A program made the translations under genes and the position numbers. From positions 1-32,347 of the forward strand of contig JADGNQ010000062.1 of NCBI GenBank assembly GCA_017883385.1: DNA of 32,347 nt. Direction: 5' to 3'. Below are positions 377 through 8,605 of the stretch, piece by piece; position 1 is the stretch's first letter; every line of letters begins with the position of its first letter. The notes below the pieces were generated by a model. The model ran no database searches and was not told where the DNA came from. It was given only the letters and a program-made list of their open reading frames with translations. The stretch is from Candidatus Sulfotelmatobacter sp. (lineage in GTDB: Bacteria > Acidobacteriota > Terriglobia > Terriglobales > Acidobacteriaceae).

Positions 377-2968
377 CTACTCCCCCTTGGGTTTCTGCTG
401 TTCCTCCTGCCGCCGTTTCTCCTCTTGTTTTTTCTGCTCGGGTGTTTGCACCTTCGGTTGCTGGCGTTGGGGCGATGTCGCCGGTTTCGTCTCCGGAGCC
501 GGCGTGCGTGGTTGGGCGCTCGGCGGAGGAGTTTGTGGACGCGAGGAAGGCTGGTTCCGGTTCGGTTCAGGTCGATTCGTTGGCGGTGTCGGCGCCGGTT
601 GATGCGGCTGCGCCACCGGGGGACGCTCATTCCGCGCAGGTGGCTCGGTTGGACGGTTCGGCTCGGGCCGGTTCGTTGGCTGTGCGGGCACCGGTTGATG
701 CGGTTGTGCCACCGGGGGACGCTCATTCCGCGCAGGTGGCTCGGTTGGACGGTTCGGCTCGGGGCGATTGGTTGGCTGCGTCGGCACCGGCTGATGCGGC
801 TGCGCCACCGGGGGACGCTCATCCCGCGCAGGTGGCTCAGTTGGACGGTTCGGCTCGGGCCGATTCGTTGGCTGTGACGGCACCGGCTGATGCGGCTGTG
901 CTACCGGGGAACGCTCATTCCGCACGGGCGGCTCAGTTGGACGGTTCGGCTCGGGGCGATTGGTTGGCTGTGTCGGCACCGGCTGATGCGGCTGTGCTAC
1001 CGGGGGACGCTCATTCCGCACGGGCGGCTCAGTTGGACGGTTCGGCTCGGGGCGATTGGTTGGCTGCGTCGGTACTGGCTGATTCGGTTGCGCCGATGGT
1101 GGACGCTCATTCCGCACGGGCGGCTCGGTTGGACGATTCGGCTCGGCGCGATTGGCTGGTTGCGTTGGTACCGGCTGATTCGGTTGCGCCAATGATGGAC
1201 GGTTCGGCTGAGCAGGATTGGCCGCTCCCGGACGTTCATTCGCCGCCGGCTGGTTGCTCGGGCGGCTTGCTGGCTGGTTCGCAGGTGGCGGATTGCCGGG
1301 TTGCCCTGGTCTGGCAGCGCTGGGTTGGTTCGGCTGATTCCCTGGACGTCCCATGTTGGGCGTCGCTGCCTTGCCCGGAGGCGCCTGCCTCACCATTGGT
1401 TGCGTCGCGGGCGCATTGGCTGGACGCAAGCTCCGAACTTCATGGCTCGCCAGAGGCTGACCAGGATGTGCTGCCAGAGCCTGTTGTTGTCTTGCGAAAG
1501 CGACCGGAGGCGGTGGTGGTGTCGCCTTGGCGATCACTTGCCGGTTCGCCACTGCTGCTGGCGGCGCGGCTACACGGTTCGCAGTCGCAGCTCTGGCTCC
1601 AAGCACGCTCTCTCGCGTGGGAGCAACCGCAACCCTCGAACTGATGGGCGCACGGGCGATATCCCGCGCGTTCACAACAACCGCGGCTCTGCCTACAGGC
1701 TGAGCACTCATGAAAGCGCGTTGTGGAACCGCCGTTACACCTCCTCGCACATTCCTGTTCACGTACGTCACATTCGTGATGTTCGTGGTTTTGTTGACGA
1801 TGGTCGTGTTGTAGACGTTCGTAATCGTGACGTTATTGACGGTGGTATTGCTGACGTTGACCCGATTCACATACTCCCGACTGACGTGGTACGAGGGCAT
1901 ATAGACTTCGCGCGGGCCCAGCGGAAACCATCCCACATTGCCGCCGAAGCCAGCACCCCCGCCGCCAATAAAAACCACCAGCGCCGGCGCATAAACCGCC
2001 CGCACGGCTACAGGTCCGGCCACCCAGCCCCAGCGTCCGCCGACGGTCACCCAGCGTCCATAGTGAAATGGAGCGTAGCCCCACGAAGCGTCATCTACCC
2101 ACGTCCATCCCCAGGGAGAGATCCAATCCCAATGGCCATCGTGATAGGGCGCCCAACCCGCAGATACGCGATTGGGGTACCAGACATGCCCGTAGTTCGA
2201 ATCGTCGCGCCAGTCGCCATTGTCGTCCAGGTCGTCATAGCCGACCACGTCGTGCGACACGTATTGCGCCGAGCGCGAGTCGTCGTGCCGGTGCTCGCGG
2301 CTGTATGCCCAGTTGTCAAACTGATCGGGGCCGCCGATTTGAACCACGTCGGCCGTCAGCGAGTCGGTTCCGCTGAACGTGCCTTTCTGCCCCGCATGCA
2401 GCGTAAAGTTTTGGCCGTTGCCGGTCGACTCGCCCTCGCCTTGCCGCACGCTAACGACCGTGTAGGTTCCGTCTTCACTGGCCGTAACCCGATAGCTCCC
2501 GGGCTGGAGAATGGAGAACGCCTGGTTCGGCGTGTCGACTTCGAAGACGTCGTCGCTGTCCAGTTGCCGCACGCTGACATTCAGCGAACCTGACGTAAGC
2601 TGGATCTGAACCGAGCGGTCATCCAGATTGAGAAAAGAGAAACCGGTATTGGCGTCCAGTCGAATCACGGCCGAGCCGAATTGCAGTTCGGCGCGTGAGT
2701 CCTTGTCTGCCCAGAGTTTGTCGCCGGTCGTCATGGGCCGGTTTGCAACCGCCTGCACCCACTCCGATTCACCAGCCGGCTGCAATGAAACCGAGCCCTC
2801 CATGTAGCCGAGTCGAGCCACCCGGCTCGGGGGATCGTCTTGTTGGGCGCTCTGCTGAGTGTCTGGCCGGTCTTGAGCGGTTGCTCGAAGTGGTAGTACC
2901 GCAATTGCGAGCGACAGCAGCAGCACTGCGCTCACCCAACTCAGATTCTTTTGCAATGTCGTATGCAT
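377..2968 (-). CDS. secreted FecR/DUF6600-type protein with proline-rich tandem-repeat tail
   Basis: This 863-residue protein starts at the ATG complementary to 2966-2968. Residues 1-31 are a signal peptide (hydrophobic core, then LRATAQ). Residues about 48-190 resemble a FecR-like domain, with VARLGYMEGSVSLQPAGESEW and LQPGSYRV. Residues about 250-320 are very rich in Trp, Tyr and Gly (GHWDWISPWGWTWVDD, WGYAPFHYGRW), as in DUF6600 proteins. An Asn/Thr/Val-rich stretch follows at about 370-410. The last 340 residues are low-complexity Pro/Asn/Gln/Arg, including six 32-residue repeats built on PTQPTNRPEPNRPTEPP. The protein should be exported and perhaps cell-envelope associated; its role is unknown. 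It is transcribed divergently from the sortase locus. The domain calls are by eye. Confidence 0.85.
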   Translation of the reverse strand: MHTTLQKNLSWVSAVLLLSLAIAVLPLRATAQDRPDTQQSAQQDDPPSRVARLGYMEGSVSLQPAGESEWVQAVANRPMTTGDKLWADKDSRAELQFGSAVIRLDANTGFSFLNLDDRSVQIQLTSGSLNVSVRQLDSDDVFEVDTPNQAFSILQPGSYRVTASEDGTYTVVSVRQGEGESTGNGQNFTLHAGQKGTFSGTDSLTADVVQIGGPDQFDNWAYSREHRHDDSRSAQYVSHDVVGYDDLDDNGDWRDDSNYGHVWYPNRVSAGWAPYHDGHWDWISPWGWTWVDDASWGYAPFHYGRWVTVGGRWGWVAGPVAVRAVYAPALVVFIGGGGAGFGGNVGWFPLGPREVYMPSYHVSREYVNRVNVSNTTVNNVTITNVYNTTIVNKTTNITNVTYVNRNVRGGVTAVPQRAFMSAQPVGRAAVVVNARDIARAPISSRVAVAPTRESVLGARAATANRVAAPPAAVANRQVIAKATPPPPPVAFARQQQALAAHPGQPLASHEVRSLRPANAPATQPMVRQAPPGKAATPNMGRPGNQPNQPSAARPGQPGNPPPANQPASRPSNQPAANERPGAANPAQPNRPSLAQPNQPVPTQPANRAEPNRPTEPPVRNERPPSAQPNQPVPTQPTNRPEPNRPTEPPVRNERPPVAQPHQPVPTQPTNRPEPNRPTEPPVRNERSPVAQPHQPVPSQPTNRPEPNRPTEPPARDERPPVAQPHQPVPTQPTNRPEPNRPTEPPARNERPPVAQPHQPVPAQPTNRPEPNRPTEPPARNERPPVAQPHQPAPTPPTNRPEPNRNQPSSRPQTPPPSAQPRTPAPETKPATSPQRQQPKVQTPEQKKQEEKRRQEEQQKPKGE
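555..1230 (-). repeat. 96-bp in-frame tandem repeats in the DUF6600-type gene
   Basis: The plus-strand landmark GGACGCTCATTCC (with small variants) recurs at 621, 717, 813, 909, 1005 and 1101, exactly 96 bases apart, with degenerate partial copies on both sides. Each unit encodes 32 residues of the Pro/Arg/Asn/Glu-rich tail, so changes in copy number keep the frame. The units are similar but not identical, and the copies nearest the gene's 3' end differ most in the QPHQPVP part. The array is also stop-free in other frames, which produces long false open frames on the opposite strand. Confidence 0.93.
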
Positions 2969-3456: not shown

Positions 3457-4179
3457 ATGAAACTGCGTAAAGGGTTGGGAATCGTAATGTGCCTTACCGT
3501 GCTCTTTGTCCTCATTGTGCCAGCGGCGATGGCGGATGACTGGAACAGAAAGACTGTTATCACCTTCAGCGGGCCCGTCGAAGTTCCAGGCGTAGGCGCT
3601 CAAACGTTGCCGGCGGGTACGTATGTTTTCAAGATTCTGGATTCACAATCCGACCGCCATATCGTTCAGATCTTCAATCAAGAAGAGACCCACCTGTTTA
3701 CAACTATCCTCGCCATCCCAAACTACCGTTTGAAGACAACGGACAAGACGGTAATCACATTTCGCGAGCGTCCCGTTGGACAGCCAGAGGCTCTGAGAGC
3801 ATGGTTTTACCCTGGCCACGCATGGGGTGAAGAGTTTGTCTACGCGAAGTCGAGAGCCATCGAGTTGGCCAAGGAAACCAATGAGCCTGTGCTCGCGACT
3901 CCGATCGAGCTGGCGGCCTCTCCCATCGAGGCTTTGAAGACGGCGCCGGTCGAGGCCGTTGCCCCTACCGGGGAGCCAGTTGAATTGGCCCAGGTTGTTG
4001 AACCACCTCCAGTGGCTACCGCTGAACCAGTGGCCGTGCCTGCCACCGAATCAGTAACTGTGGCCGCCGCTCACCCCCTGCCGAAAACAGCAAGTCCGCT
4101 GCCCCTGATTGCATTGATCGGGTTGCTGACGATTGGCGTCGGCCTCGCTCTTTCGTTAATTTCGAAGCGAACCGTCTGA
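3457..4179 (+). CDS. small secreted protein with LPKTAS sortase sorting signal
   Basis: The start at 3457 is set by AGGAG five bases upstream and by the signal peptide it exposes (residues 1-26, MKLRKGLGIVMCLTV then PAAMA). The open frame extends further upstream, but that part lacks a signal sequence. The mature part (27-130) begins DDWNRKTVITFSGPVEVPG and contains the short beta-rich pattern LPAGTYVFKI, seen in small exported acidobacterial proteins. Residues 140-205 are a Pro/Ala/Val/Glu spacer. The C-terminus is a textbook sorting signal: LPKTAS at 208-213, a hydrophobic helix at 215-235 and a short KRTV tail. It is therefore the likely substrate of the sortase encoded two genes downstream. 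The molecular role of the mature domain is unknown. Confidence 0.85.
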   Translation: MKLRKGLGIVMCLTVLFVLIVPAAMADDWNRKTVITFSGPVEVPGVGAQTLPAGTYVFKILDSQSDRHIVQIFNQEETHLFTTILAIPNYRLKTTDKTVITFRERPVGQPEALRAWFYPGHAWGEEFVYAKSRAIELAKETNEPVLATPIELAASPIEALKTAPVEAVAPTGEPVELAQVVEPPPVATAEPVAVPATESVTVAAAHPLPKTASPLPLIALIGLLTIGVGLALSLISKRTV

Positions 4180-4309
4180 GCCAAGTAAAGAGATGGATCT
4201 GCGGGGGCGACCGATCCATGTGAGTTGATCGGATGCCGGACGGCGCGAAACATTGCGACCGTCCGGTTCCTCCCGGCACGGCTCAGGTTGCAACGAAAGA
4301 AAGCGACGG

Positions 4310-5347
4310 ATGACCGAGCCTTCTGTGTCCGCGCCATATCTGCAAAGAGTCCTGAGGCACGCCATGGAGCATTCCGCTAACTGGCTGGGTGTTCTTCTAG
4401 TGCTGATTACATTAGCTAGCTTGGCTCGGCCACAAGAACCCACTTTGTCGCACAATCGCTCGGGCGACGAATACACCATTCGAGTAGATGTTGACATGGT
4501 GGTTTTGCGTGCAACTGCCCAGGACCGCAAAAACATTCTTGTCTCCGGACTCGGTAAGGACGATTTCCAGGTTTACGAAAACGGAGTGCTGCAACCGATC
4601 AAGTACTTCAGTCACGAAGATATCCCGGTCACGGTGGGCCTGGTTGTCGATAACAGTGGAAGCATGGGTCCGAAGCTCCGGGACGTGGTTGCTGCCGCGT
4701 TGGTGTTTGCCCGCTCTAGCAATCCGCACGACCAGATGTTCGTGGTCAATTTCAACGAAGCAGTCTCGTTTGGCCTTCGCGGCAATGCGCCGTTCACAGA
4801 CCAAGCGACTCAATTGGAAGTTGCTCTGTCCAGCATCCGCGCCCGTGGTGAGACAGCACTGTACGATGCGGTTGCTGCCGCTCTCGAGCATCTAAAGAAG
4901 GGCAATCGCGACAAGAAGGTGCTGATCGTAATCAGTGATGGCGGCGACAACGCCAGCAAGCATAAGCTCGGCGAAATCATGGCCATGGCAGGGCAGCCCG
5001 ACGCGATCATCTACACTATCGGCATTTTCGATGATCAAGATGCCGATCGAAACCCTAAGGTACTCAAGCGGCTTGCCAAGGACACAGGCGGCGAGGCCTT
5101 CCTGCCGGAATCGTTAAAGGACGTTGCCCCCATCTGCGAACAGATCGCGCGCGACATCCGCAATCAGTACACCATTGCGTATGTCCCCACGAACAAAAAG
5201 CGGGACGGAAGCTATCGGGTCGTGCAAGTGAAGGCCAGCGCACCAGGTCGTGGACGTTTGTCGGTCCGCTCCCGGACCGGCTATTTCGCACCGTCCGCAC
5301 AGTCACCATCAGCGGCAAAGACGAATGATCATGCAGCTCAAAACTGA
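4310..5347 (+). CDS. secreted VWFA domain protein (acidobacterial type)
   Basis: The 345-residue protein has an N-terminal hydrophobic segment (residues 24-40, WLGVLLVLITLASLARPQ) that looks like a signal peptide. It is followed by the region typical of acidobacterial VWFA proteins (VDVDMVVLRATAQD, DDFQVYENGVLQPIKYF) and a full VWA fold. The metal-ion-dependent adhesion site is intact: D114-N-S116-G-S118, T182 and D210 of ISDGGDN. The C-terminus (YTIAYVPTNKK, RTGYFAP) also fits the family. The start is uncertain: 4310 gives a basic n-region, 4364 has a better Shine-Dalgarno (GAGG, six bases away), and a TTG at 4253 is less likely. It lies between a sorting-signal protein and a sortase, and overlaps the sortase start by 23 bases. 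It has no LPxTG-like signal itself. Its ligand is unknown. Confidence 0.9.
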   Translation: MTEPSVSAPYLQRVLRHAMEHSANWLGVLLVLITLASLARPQEPTLSHNRSGDEYTIRVDVDMVVLRATAQDRKNILVSGLGKDDFQVYENGVLQPIKYFSHEDIPVTVGLVVDNSGSMGPKLRDVVAAALVFARSSNPHDQMFVVNFNEAVSFGLRGNAPFTDQATQLEVALSSIRARGETALYDAVAAALEHLKKGNRDKKVLIVISDGGDNASKHKLGEIMAMAGQPDAIIYTIGIFDDQDADRNPKVLKRLAKDTGGEAFLPESLKDVAPICEQIARDIRNQYTIAYVPTNKKRDGSYRVVQVKASAPGRGRLSVRSRTGYFAPSAQSPSAAKTNDHAAQN

Positions 5348-5945
5348 ACGGGAGACACTCCCCACGAGAGTTCAGCGGTTTCTTAGTTGGAGTCAACGCC
5401 TCCTTTTCGTTACTGGTACTCTTGCCCTCTGCTACGTCGGTTTCAATCTGCTCGACGCCCGGCTCTACCAGGTGTCTGCAAAGCGGTCCCTGGAGAAGCA
5501 GATCCAACTGGAGAACAAGTACCACGACACCCAGCCTCGACCAACGCTCAAAACGGGCGACGTTCTGGGCCGCATCGATATCCCGAGGCTGGGAGTCTCC
5601 GTCGCAGTTCTGCAAGGGACCAATTCGCGAATATTGCGGCTGGGTGCAGGACATATCGAAGGCACTTCTCTTCCAGGAGAATCCGGGAACACTGGAATCG
5701 CTGGGCATCGCGACACGTTCTTCCGCGACTTGAAAGACATCCACCAAAACGATGAGATTCAGATTCAGACAACAACCGGATTATTTCGCTACGGGGTAGA
5801 CTGGGCAAAGGTCGTCGAACCCGATGACACCACGGTTCTCGAGCCTTCGGCACCGGGATCCACGCTCACGCTCGTGACCTGCTATCCATTCTATTTCGTC
5901 GGTCCGGCACCGAAGCGGTTTGTCGTGCGAGCGCACAAGTATTAA
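5325..5945 (+). CDS. class D-like sortase
   Basis: This 206-residue transpeptidase has an N-terminal membrane anchor at about 26-44 (LLFVTGTLALCYVGFNLL) and a sortase domain from about 77. The catalytic residues are all visible: His128 in GNTGIAGHRDTFF, Cys186 in TLTLVTCYPF and Arg198 in PKRFVV. Sortases cut LPxT-G/A signals and join the threonine carboxylate to an amine on the cell surface. The expected substrate is the LPKTAS protein at 3457-4179. The ATG at 5325, or the ATG two codons later at 5331, overlaps the end of the VWA gene, so the two are probably translationally coupled. The open frame upstream of 5325 lies inside the VWA gene and is ignored. The subclass is judged from the short length and the LPxTA-type partner. 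Confidence 0.92.
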   Translation: MIMQLKTERETLPTRVQRFLSWSQRLLFVTGTLALCYVGFNLLDARLYQVSAKRSLEKQIQLENKYHDTQPRPTLKTGDVLGRIDIPRLGVSVAVLQGTNSRILRLGAGHIEGTSLPGESGNTGIAGHRDTFFRDLKDIHQNDEIQIQTTTGLFRYGVDWAKVVEPDDTTVLEPSAPGSTLTLVTCYPFYFVGPAPKRFVVRAHKY

Positions 5946-6170: not shown

Positions 6171-6842
6171 ATGGGCGGACAGGGAATAGAACGTCGGGAA
6201 ATCCTCCGCTTTATCGGCATCGCGTCTGTGGCGGCGAGCTTTCCCGGGTTCCATCAATGGGCGTTCGCATGTGCTCATCATCAGGAACCTGCCGCGACGG
6301 CGCCGATTGATGCTGGCCCCTACAACCCTCTTTTCTTCTCCCCGCAGCAATTCAGAATGGTCGAGCATTTGGCGGAGATGATCATTCCGGAAGACGATAC
6401 GCCCGGAGCAAAGAAAGCTGGCGTCGCGGAGTTCATCGATTTCATGGTGGCCAACAAGGTTCCGGTGAGCGCATCGCGCGACGTGCGTTCGACACAGGAC
6501 ACGATTGAAATGGGGAATGAGGCGCAAAGTCGGTTTCTCGCGGGGCTAGGCTGGATGAATACACGTAGCCATTCAGAATTTGAGCGGGAGTTCATGGACT
6601 GTACTCGCGAGCAACAGAATGCGCTGTTGGAAGAACTAGCGTACAAGGCGAAATTCAAACCGACGACGGAGAGTGGACGCGCATTTTTTCAAATGATGCG
6701 CGATTACACGGTTGTCGGTTACTACACAACCAAAGTCGGATTAGAGAGCCTGGGATATCCCGGGCTTCGGACGGTATGGCCAAAGATGCCGAGCTGTCCG
6801 CATCCTGACGATCCCGAACACACGCATCTGCGTGAACCATAG
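6171..6842 (+). CDS. gluconate 2-dehydrogenase subunit 3-like protein with Tat signal
   Basis: The ATG at 6171 is chosen because AGGAG ends six bases upstream; an earlier in-frame TTG at 6153 has no such site. The 223-residue product starts with a twin-arginine-like signal (ERREILRFIGIASVAASFPG), then has the family pattern FFSPQQFRMVEHLAEMIIPE, DTPGAKKAGVAEFIDFMV and, near the end, TTKVGLESLGYPG. Subunit 3 proteins are small partners of GMC-type dehydrogenases. In FAD-glucose and gluconate dehydrogenases they act as a chaperone or subunit and carry the Tat signal for the complex. The GMC gene follows after 65 bases, and that protein has no export signal of its own, so hitch-hiker export is likely. 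Confidence 0.88.
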   Translation: MGGQGIERREILRFIGIASVAASFPGFHQWAFACAHHQEPAATAPIDAGPYNPLFFSPQQFRMVEHLAEMIIPEDDTPGAKKAGVAEFIDFMVANKVPVSASRDVRSTQDTIEMGNEAQSRFLAGLGWMNTRSHSEFEREFMDCTREQQNALLEELAYKAKFKPTTESGRAFFQMMRDYTVVGYYTTKVGLESLGYPGLRTVWPKMPSCPHPDDPEHTHLREP

Positions 6843-6907
6843 CGTCCAGTTGCTTTCGCTCCAACGGCCTAGAACTAGACGGGCAAGAGTCAGCGAGGAT
6901 TGTTTCA

Positions 6908-8605
6908 TTGACAACCAAGATCTATGACGCAATTGTGGTAGGAACTGGCGCCGGCGGCGGAATGGCCATGAAGATCCTGTGCGAAGCAGGGTTGCAAGTG
7001 TGCGCCATCAACTCTGGGCCGCGCACGGATCCCACAGAGGATTTTCGGCAGCACCGGCAGGTTTACGACCTGAAGTTTCGGGGCTACGGCAATCCCCTGC
7101 GTTTCGAAGGCAAGGCGCACCAAGAGCCCTACTCCGTAGAAGAATCCGAATACAGCGAGGGAAGAGATCTTTTTGAACATGACATTGCCTATGCAAATGC
7201 GCCGGGCACTGATTGGTACTGGAAGCGTTGCAAGGCAACCGGCGGCAAGGCCAATTTTTGGGGGCGCTCTTCGGCCCGTTACGGAGACATCGATTTCAAG
7301 GCAGCAGATTTTGATGGGTTCGGTGAAAACTGGCCGGTCGACTACGCGGAGATTTCGCCATGGTTTTCGAAGGCCGAACGATATATGGGAGTGGCCAGCA
7401 CAATTCAAAACCGGCCGAGCAATCCTGATGGCGAGTATCTGCCGCCAATGCCCTGGCGTTGTATTGATCACATCATTCAGAAGGGCGCCGAAAAGATTGG
7501 TGTTCCGTATTTGCCGGACCGCTGCGCCCAACTCACGGTGGACCACTACGATCATCCAGCCTGTCACTATTGCGGGAACTGCAGCCGCGGCTGTGATGCC
7601 GGGTCTTTCTTCTCTCCGACGTGGTTCACGATTCCAGATGCCGAAGCCACCAAGAATCTGACCTTGCTCACAAATGCCCTGGTAAGAAGTGTAATTACCG
7701 ACGAGAACGGCTTGGCCAAGGGCGTCGCATATATCGACCGCGGTACCCGTCAGGAAGTAGAGGTCTACGCCAAGGTGGTTGTGCTTGCCGCTTCCTGCGT
7801 CGAGACGGCACACATCATGTTGAATTCGAAATCCCGCCACTGGCCAACCGGAATCGCGAATTCCAGCGGGCAGCTCGGTCGGAACCTATGCGATCACCTG
7901 TACGGTTCCCCTGGTTATGGATACCTGCCGCGGCTTCTTGGGCAGCCTGCGACTCCCGACAACATTGCCGACTCTACCGTCGCGTGGATGCCGCGCTGGC
8001 AGAACCTGAAGAACCCGCATGAAGAACAATTCATTCGAGGCTACTCGGTATACATGGGGGGCGGTTGTGGGGATTTCCCAGGATATTACGGACAAATAGA
8101 GGGATTCGGATTGCAATTCAAACACGATATCAAGCGATACTACCCGACTGGCATCGGCGCTCTCATCCAGGCGCCGTCGCTTCCTAGCCCGACTAATTAC
8201 GTCGACATTGATCCGGACAAGAAAGACATTTTCGGAATTCCACAGCTTCGATTTCATTTTCAGTGGGGCCAGAACGAACTCTTGATGTGGGAACACTCAA
8301 AACGAGTGATGGCGGATCTCTTCAAGGCCATGGGCGGAGAGATGTGGGGTATGGACGACGAACCTAACCGTCCAGGGACCAGTTTGCACGAAACCGGAGT
8401 CTGCCGGTTTGGAAATGACGCGAAGACGTCGGTTACGAACAAGTGGGCGCAGACCCACGACGTTCCCAATCTCTACATTTGCGACGCCAGCATTTTCCCG
8501 AGTCCTACCGACAAGACCACGACGATGCCAATCGTCGCCTTTACTATGCGGACCTGTGATCACATGCTCAGCAACTTCAAACAAGGCATTCACAAGCGTG
8601 TATGA
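6908..8605 (+). CDS. GMC family FAD-dependent oxidoreductase (gluconate/glucose dehydrogenase-like)
   Basis: The 565-residue flavoprotein starts at a TTG preceded by GAGGA eight bases upstream; no in-frame ATG lies close. The FAD-binding glycine motif is at residues 12-18 (GTGAGGG). The C-terminal GMC region has LHETGVCRFG with a conserved-type His, and VPNLYICDASIFPSP followed by TTTMPIVAFTMR. Residues 219-229 carry four cysteines in a C-x2-C-x2-C-x3-C pattern (CHYCGNCSRGC), as seen in dehydrogenases of this group that use an iron-sulfur cluster. It should oxidise a sugar or polyol in the periplasm together with subunit 3. No cytochrome c subunit follows: the next gene is convergent, so the electron acceptor is unknown. 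Confidence 0.92.
   Translation: MTTKIYDAIVVGTGAGGGMAMKILCEAGLQVCAINSGPRTDPTEDFRQHRQVYDLKFRGYGNPLRFEGKAHQEPYSVEESEYSEGRDLFEHDIAYANAPGTDWYWKRCKATGGKANFWGRSSARYGDIDFKAADFDGFGENWPVDYAEISPWFSKAERYMGVASTIQNRPSNPDGEYLPPMPWRCIDHIIQKGAEKIGVPYLPDRCAQLTVDHYDHPACHYCGNCSRGCDAGSFFSPTWFTIPDAEATKNLTLLTNALVRSVITDENGLAKGVAYIDRGTRQEVEVYAKVVVLAASCVETAHIMLNSKSRHWPTGIANSSGQLGRNLCDHLYGSPGYGYLPRLLGQPATPDNIADSTVAWMPRWQNLKNPHEEQFIRGYSVYMGGGCGDFPGYYGQIEGFGLQFKHDIKRYYPTGIGALIQAPSLPSPTNYVDIDPDKKDIFGIPQLRFHFQWGQNELLMWEHSKRVMADLFKAMGGEMWGMDDEPNRPGTSLHETGVCRFGNDAKTSVTNKWAQTHDVPNLYICDASIFPSPTDKTTTMPIVAFTMRTCDHMLSNFKQGIHKRV

Follow-up and report, generated by a model that had tools for sequence, protein, structure and literature searches.

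Sortase cassette in a double-membrane acidobacterium

Covalent anchoring of exported proteins by sortases is known mainly from Gram-positive bacteria, and what these enzymes do in outer-membrane bacteria is a wider question, on which the acidobacterial cassette described here bears. A passage of a 2023 article (PMC10581121) calls the role of Gram-negative sortases unknown and their distribution limited to halotolerant proteobacteria, an excerpt of a 2020 article (PMC7203096) calls sortase unknown in strictly negibacterial phyla, and one table of PMC3174227 enters six Sortase genes for Solibacter. Among the titles and abstracts listed in searches of open-licence PMC literature, we found no description of this dedicated sortase cassette in Acidobacteriota. 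The gene types themselves are already known, as family models cover both the sortase and the VWA protein.

Open reading frame translations of the window (the whole 32,347-nucleotide stretch of DNA analysed) place a three-gene cassette at 3457-5945, head to tail on the plus strand: a target gene encoding a 240-residue secreted protein (3457-4179), a gene for a 345-residue VWA protein (4310-5347), and a gene for a 206-residue class D-like sortase (5325-5945). The sortase frame has two possible ATG starts, which give it an overlap of 17 or 23 bases with the VWA frame. The first-pass annotation had described three same-strand genes here—a sorting-signal protein, a VWA protein and a sortase with His128, Cys186 and Arg198—and the translations and a residue check confirmed this layout. 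No dedicated export gene was seen within the three-gene unit of the window.

The host genome (6.8 Mb in 446 contigs, 97% complete) encodes LptD (43.6 bits; cut-off 22.4), in support of the earlier premise of a diderm host. Its MurE has the motif DNPR (DNPRGE), which we take to mark meso-DAP addition; together, these two features suggest an LPS diderm with a meso-DAP wall. Many soil acidobacteria, with their double-membrane envelope, carry such a cassette, whose enzyme very probably cuts one dedicated exported partner and anchors it covalently in the envelope. We further consider it reasonably likely that in this dedicated class D-type cassette the sortase cuts the target after Thr211 and joins it to periplasmic peptidoglycan. 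Because the pair is a simple one, of one enzyme and one substrate, the question is testable in cultured soil strains.

A class D-like sortase with an invariant active site

The sortase comprises an N-terminal membrane helix and a catalytic domain at about residues 80-205. The codons of the catalytic residues lie on the plus strand at 5706-5708 (His128), 5880-5882 (Cys186) and 5916-5918 (Arg198), and by comparison all three residues are invariant among 43 aligned sortases, namely the window enzyme and 42 from the best 80 of 181 sortase relatives. Among its nearest named relatives, which share 77-80% identity with it, is a Candidatus Sulfotelmatobacter MAG (Terriglobia, Acidobacteriota).

In profile searches, the window sortase exceeded the cut-offs of PF04203 (110.1 bits; cut-off 26.6) and of NF058671, the class D model specific for LPxTATN (152.7 bits; cut-off 140). 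The general class D model NF033746 was second-best overall at 134.7 bits, below its cut-off of 165, while the class GN model TIGR03784 (97.7 bits) remained far below its cut-off of 158.25, and the class E and class C models were likewise below theirs. Every one of the 43 scanned sortases matched both NF058671 and class D with E-values no higher than 1e-10; other class models were matched as well, with NF058671 giving the best E-value. The closest solved relative by sequence is 4d70 (6.1e-24), followed by 2ln7 (2.4e-18), and the predicted structural model (mean pLDDT 93.6) has as its best fold match the same 4d70, sortase D of Clostridium perfringens (Foldseek E 1.3e-15; target-normalised TM 0.82). 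By family score, solved relatives and motif, the window sortase is class D-like. The link to class D/SrtC-type enzymes drawn by the first-pass annotation is borne out by the NF058671 score, the relation to 4d70 and the likeness of the signal to LPNTAS.

Target protein and its sorting signal

The target consists of a signal peptide (about residues 1-26, by eye), a conserved domain (about 27-135), a linker rich in Pro, Ala, Val and Glu, and a C-terminal sorting signal. This signal occupies residues 208-240 (4078-4176, plus strand) and joins LPKTAS (208-213) to a hydrophobic stretch and a KR tail, the protein ending in ISKRTV; the codon of Thr211, after which the cut is predicted from known sortases, lies at 4087-4089 on the plus strand. 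Against DUF2911 (PF11138), the N-terminal domain scored 11.8 bits, below the Pfam cut-off of 27. The LPxTATN signal model NF058670 gave 16.2 bits for the whole protein and 21.1 bits for the tail alone, both below its cut-off of 32. The LPXTG model TIGR01167 gave 16.3 bits (cut-off 15.9) for the tail scanned alone and no reported match for the whole protein; 42 of 49 tails scanned alone matched the latter model at E up to 1.

A signal profile was compiled from 49 related signals, including both tails of this genome. Across the whole genome it recovered the window tail at E 2.9e-15 and the second tail at 1.7e-14, the third-best match standing at 0.048; as both tails are rows of the profile, independent support comes from other genomes. 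At the best 80 of the 181 sortase relatives, all from named genomes, profiles of the window proteins found the sortase at 80 loci, the target domain at 58 and the VWA protein at 50. The tail singled out by the first-pass annotation is conserved at these relatives: by pattern, an LPxT[AGS]-type tail was present as 72 signals at 71 of the 80 loci, and by profile at 70, the tail of L119 being seen by pattern and missed by profile. Among the nine loci lacking it by pattern, five have less than 3 kb upstream; at the other four (L083, L114, L115 and L118) it is absent despite at least 3 kb.

Across the 72 signals, Pro2 and Thr4 are invariant, Leu1 is kept in 64 and Ser6 in 63, and position 5 is Ala in 58, Gly in 10 and Ser in 4. 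Conservation extends downstream to Pro9 (66 of 72), Leu10 (64) and Gly15 (70), and Lys or Arg occurs beyond residue 24 in every signal.

The linker preceding the signal has a median length of 72 residues over 58 targets, one value being inflated by an odd domain end; fully extended, it could by arithmetic reach tens of nanometres, a figure that says nothing on exposure. Within the linker (window about 3880-4077), a stretch resembling APxxAVxPTGEEVxLAxVVxxPP is conserved in many relatives, so that the linker is more than a spacer. Binding of the VWA protein by its PTGExV-like motif was considered and found no clear link: the motif occurs in 30 of 47 targets with a VWA gene at the locus versus 5 of 11 without, by a pattern that overlooked near variants and with the L088 linker mis-bounded.

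Of 20 genomes with neither sortase nor signal, all from the window's own family, none contained the target domain. That tail and domain are inseparable is refuted by tail-less domain relatives in G158, in G122 (two) and at G073:C127; a domain relative in G222 ran into another kind of protein. Such tail-less relatives are small exported proteins, so an anchor is not essential for the domain to function, and this would suit a sortase that is mainly a protease, with water as the acceptor and the target freed as a soluble periplasmic or secreted protein. Studied sortases are, however, transpeptidases, and a linker of this length is better suited to a tether than to a released protein, so that we regard release as improbable next to anchoring on the wall.

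Co-occurrence of sortase and signal

We surveyed two genome samples for the sortase and the signal. In the first, 299 genomes of one acidobacterial class, the window sortase was searched at E up to 1e-5 and the signal profile at E up to 0.01; in the second, 396 genomes of the phylum, a sortase alignment was used at E up to 1e-15. Sortase was recovered in 109 of the 299 class genomes and in 81 of the 396 phylum genomes, nearly always with a matching signal. The class sample contained the signal in 106 genomes, with both in 97, sortase only in 12, signal only in 9 and neither in 181 (Fisher p 1.8e-53, kinship ignored). Co-occurrence of the sortase and the small protein, checked here via the signal, is therefore upheld. 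Within the window's genus, the host (G000) and G245 carry both, whereas G054 and G298 carry neither.

All discordant genomes were retained in these counts. Among the class genomes with a signal only, G076, G109, G134, G211 and G271 have weak matches, whereas G073, G161, G238 and G270 have strong tails and no sortase match; since the latter assemblies are in 410 to 640 contigs, sortase loss and an assembly gap are both possible. Six genomes with a sortase only (G122, G158, G236, G247, G259 and G262) have distant sortases at about 76-80 bits, and G197, placed in the same category, does have a tail, LPHTASWLP, which scored beneath the threshold.

The phylum sample contained the signal in 67 genomes, with both in 62, sortase only in 19, signal only in 5 (weak matches inside long frames) and neither in 310. 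Fifteen of the 62 shared genomes belong to the class and overlap the first sample; outside the class, sortase was found in 65 genomes, the signal in 52 and both in 47. The signal model was built mostly from the class, so it may miss more outside it, or other signals may be used there.

Of the 150 signals listed for the class sample, 114 have a sortase no more than 8 kb away: 111 share its strand, with 93 of them upstream of it and 18 downstream, and 3 are on the opposite strand. The other 36 lie away from any sortase, some being weak matches or on contigs of their own, and 30 of the sortase matches listed have no nearby signal. Taken together, the pairing of sortase and signal is well supported by comparison.

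A search of the host genome for further LPxTA signals, proposed by the first-pass annotation, returned one more: the whole-genome profile scan placed a second strong signal on contig C191, beside a broken sortase. This second cassette (L007 704-2236) consists of a sortase followed by a target with an LPKTAS tail, the target (L007 704-1555, minus strand) ending in ELPKTASLVPLIGLLGFLSLAMGAGLRIVGRKTRHDS. The C191 sortase is split over two frames, with the His, Cys and Arg regions still encoded, as either a decayed gene or an assembly fault. In the same-genus genome G245, a second sortase (C3) is unbroken, with a signal close by. Since the C191 enzyme is broken, one could guess that both targets are handled by the sortase of the window.

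These counts bear on whether the sortase is a housekeeping enzyme that serves many LPxTA proteins, its neighbour being merely one of them. Several signals do occur in some genomes (up to five listed), as housekeeping would have it. Against this, the host has two strong signals, each adjoining a sortase, and a single signal is found among the matches listed in 71 of the 97 genomes with both, a count from which the profile may miss divergent tails. We consider housekeeping very improbable indeed, and a dedicated pair the better reading.

Gene order and the VWA protein

Comparison among the best 80 of 181 loci places target, VWA protein and sortase in this order on one strand at 46 of the 47 loci with both the target domain and a VWA gene; the triad is thus recovered in relatives, where the first-pass annotation had suggested looking for it. 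The VWA gene directly precedes the sortase at 49 of the 50 loci that have one, its stop lying at most 54 bases ahead of the first profiled sortase residue. At other loci the sortase comes first, followed by a different target (for example, L116, L120, L123, L125 and L127); that the same tail occurs on unrelated targets points to the tail as what the enzyme reads.

The VWA protein belongs to the acidobacterial VWA family TIGR03436 (224 bits; cut-off 81.25), a family common in the host genome, with 20 matches above the cut-off. As the first-pass annotation had stated, its adhesion site is intact and a sorting signal is absent: DNSGS lies at residue 114 and SDGGD at 209, no signal was found at the C-terminus of the translation, and the N-terminus has a hydrophobic export segment. 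We take the DxSxS and SDGGD motifs to be metal-binding. Among 50 sortase-linked VWA proteins, D.SGS is kept in 44, a TALYDA-like pattern in 46 and SDG.D in all 50. In a quick tree, one branch (support 81) separates 50 sortase-linked rows, comprising 49 loci and the window, from 18 paralogue rows, of which two pairs are the same frame twice and five are short; the L119 match (below 300 bits) was left out. This separate branch fits long co-inheritance with the sortase. The VWA gene is missing at 11 of the 58 target-domain loci among the best 80 of 181 relatives, so the protein is not strictly needed. In function, it is probably a partner of either the target or the sortase.

Three further observations concern individual loci. 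In the Bryobacterales L073 (2243-4096), L076 (2154-3968) and L101 (2066-3997), a gene resembling malic enzyme by eye lies between target and VWA gene. Cassettes at L106, L122 and L126 lie on contigs labelled Deltaproteobacteria, Myxococcaceae and Steroidobacteraceae, which may reflect wrong bins or spread beyond Acidobacteriota. L171, L170, L175 and L178 hold target-domain relatives with neither linker nor sorting tail.

Comparison with known sortase systems

The class D sortase of Bacillus anthracis (SrtC or SrtD, with BasI/BasH) belongs to the same profile family, with LPNTAS/LPNTA in place of the LPKTAS found here; the part of PMC4498605 dealing with this enzyme gives LPNTAS as its preferred motif. 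B. anthracis is a monoderm spore former with other substrates, whereas the window host is an LPS diderm, and unlike in the SrtC/SrtD system a VWA gene here stands between target and enzyme. Sortase D of C. perfringens (4d70), the best solved relative by both sequence and fold, shares about 30% identity; it comes from a Gram-positive bacterium and, according to the same part of PMC4498605, prefers LPQTGS and has an LPQTGS substrate encoded nearby.

The window sortase passes the NF058671 cut-off of the LPXTA/LPxTATN system of B. cellulosilyticus, whose tails, as given in a portion of PMC3617157, likewise place Gly 15 residues in. That article reports 23 (abstract) or 27 (text) LPXTA proteins, many of them polysaccharide enzymes, as against two signals in the host genome, and Thr-Asn after LPxTA where the present signals have Ser; Ser6 and Pro9-Leu10 of the window-type signals are not shared. 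The window tail also falls below the cut-off of NF058670, the signal model of the B. cellulosilyticus type.

A VWA protein is involved both in the class GN pair and in the window cassette. The class GN sortase target carries VIT. The window VWA protein has no sorting signal, unlike the class GN target, and its sortase is far from reaching the TIGR03784 cut-off. An excerpt of PMC3237569 describes class GN sortase and VWA target (TIGR03784 and TIGR03788) as a dedicated Gram-negative pair, side by side.

Proposed anchoring and its acceptor

From these comparisons and from studied relatives, we infer a cut, an acceptor and a periplasmic location for the target. After export, its C-terminal helix would keep it in the inner membrane, whereupon the sortase would cut between Thr211 and Ala212 and the target would pass from Cys186 to an amino group. 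A section of PMC3297441 describes SrtC of B. anthracis cutting LPNTA between Thr and Ala with m-Dpm as the nucleophile; if the window sortase behaves alike, it would cleave the target behind Thr211 and link it to meso-DAP. The likeliest acceptor would be meso-diaminopimelate, through its side-chain amine, either in lipid II or in peptidoglycan, at the outer face of the inner membrane. With that acceptor, the mature target would be a wall-bound periplasmic protein whose domain is kept at a distance by a linker of about 70 residues.

An outer membrane, indicated by LptD, would leave such a wall anchor unexposed, and the sortase may instead link the target to an amine outside peptidoglycan—a lipid, a glycan or a lysine of the VWA protein—for outer-membrane or surface display. 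The position of the VWA gene directly ahead of the sortase would fit this. Against it, 11 of 58 target loci have no VWA gene, the three-gene unit shows no export gene of its own, and wall amines are what the class D enzymes use that are nearest to the window sortase among those solved or studied. We judge a non-wall acceptor unlikely, and continue to favour peptidoglycan.

Beyond wall anchoring itself, we tentatively suggest, as a less likely possibility, a widespread acidobacterial system in which one dedicated class D-type sortase plants a single long-stalked protein on the periplasmic wall of LPS diderms. The co-encoded VWA protein would recognise this stalked protein, and the two might form a covalent tether or scaffold that links the wall with the outer membrane, or else an exposed fibre.

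Genes flanking the cassette

On the minus strand at window 377-2968 lies a gene for an 863-residue exported protein with DUF6600 (9.5e-27) and a long near-repeat tail rich in Pro, Asn and Glu. Just 3' of the cassette, window 6171-8605 (plus strand) encodes a Gluconate 2-dehydrogenase subunit 3-like protein (PF13618) and, after it, a GMC-type FAD oxidoreductase.
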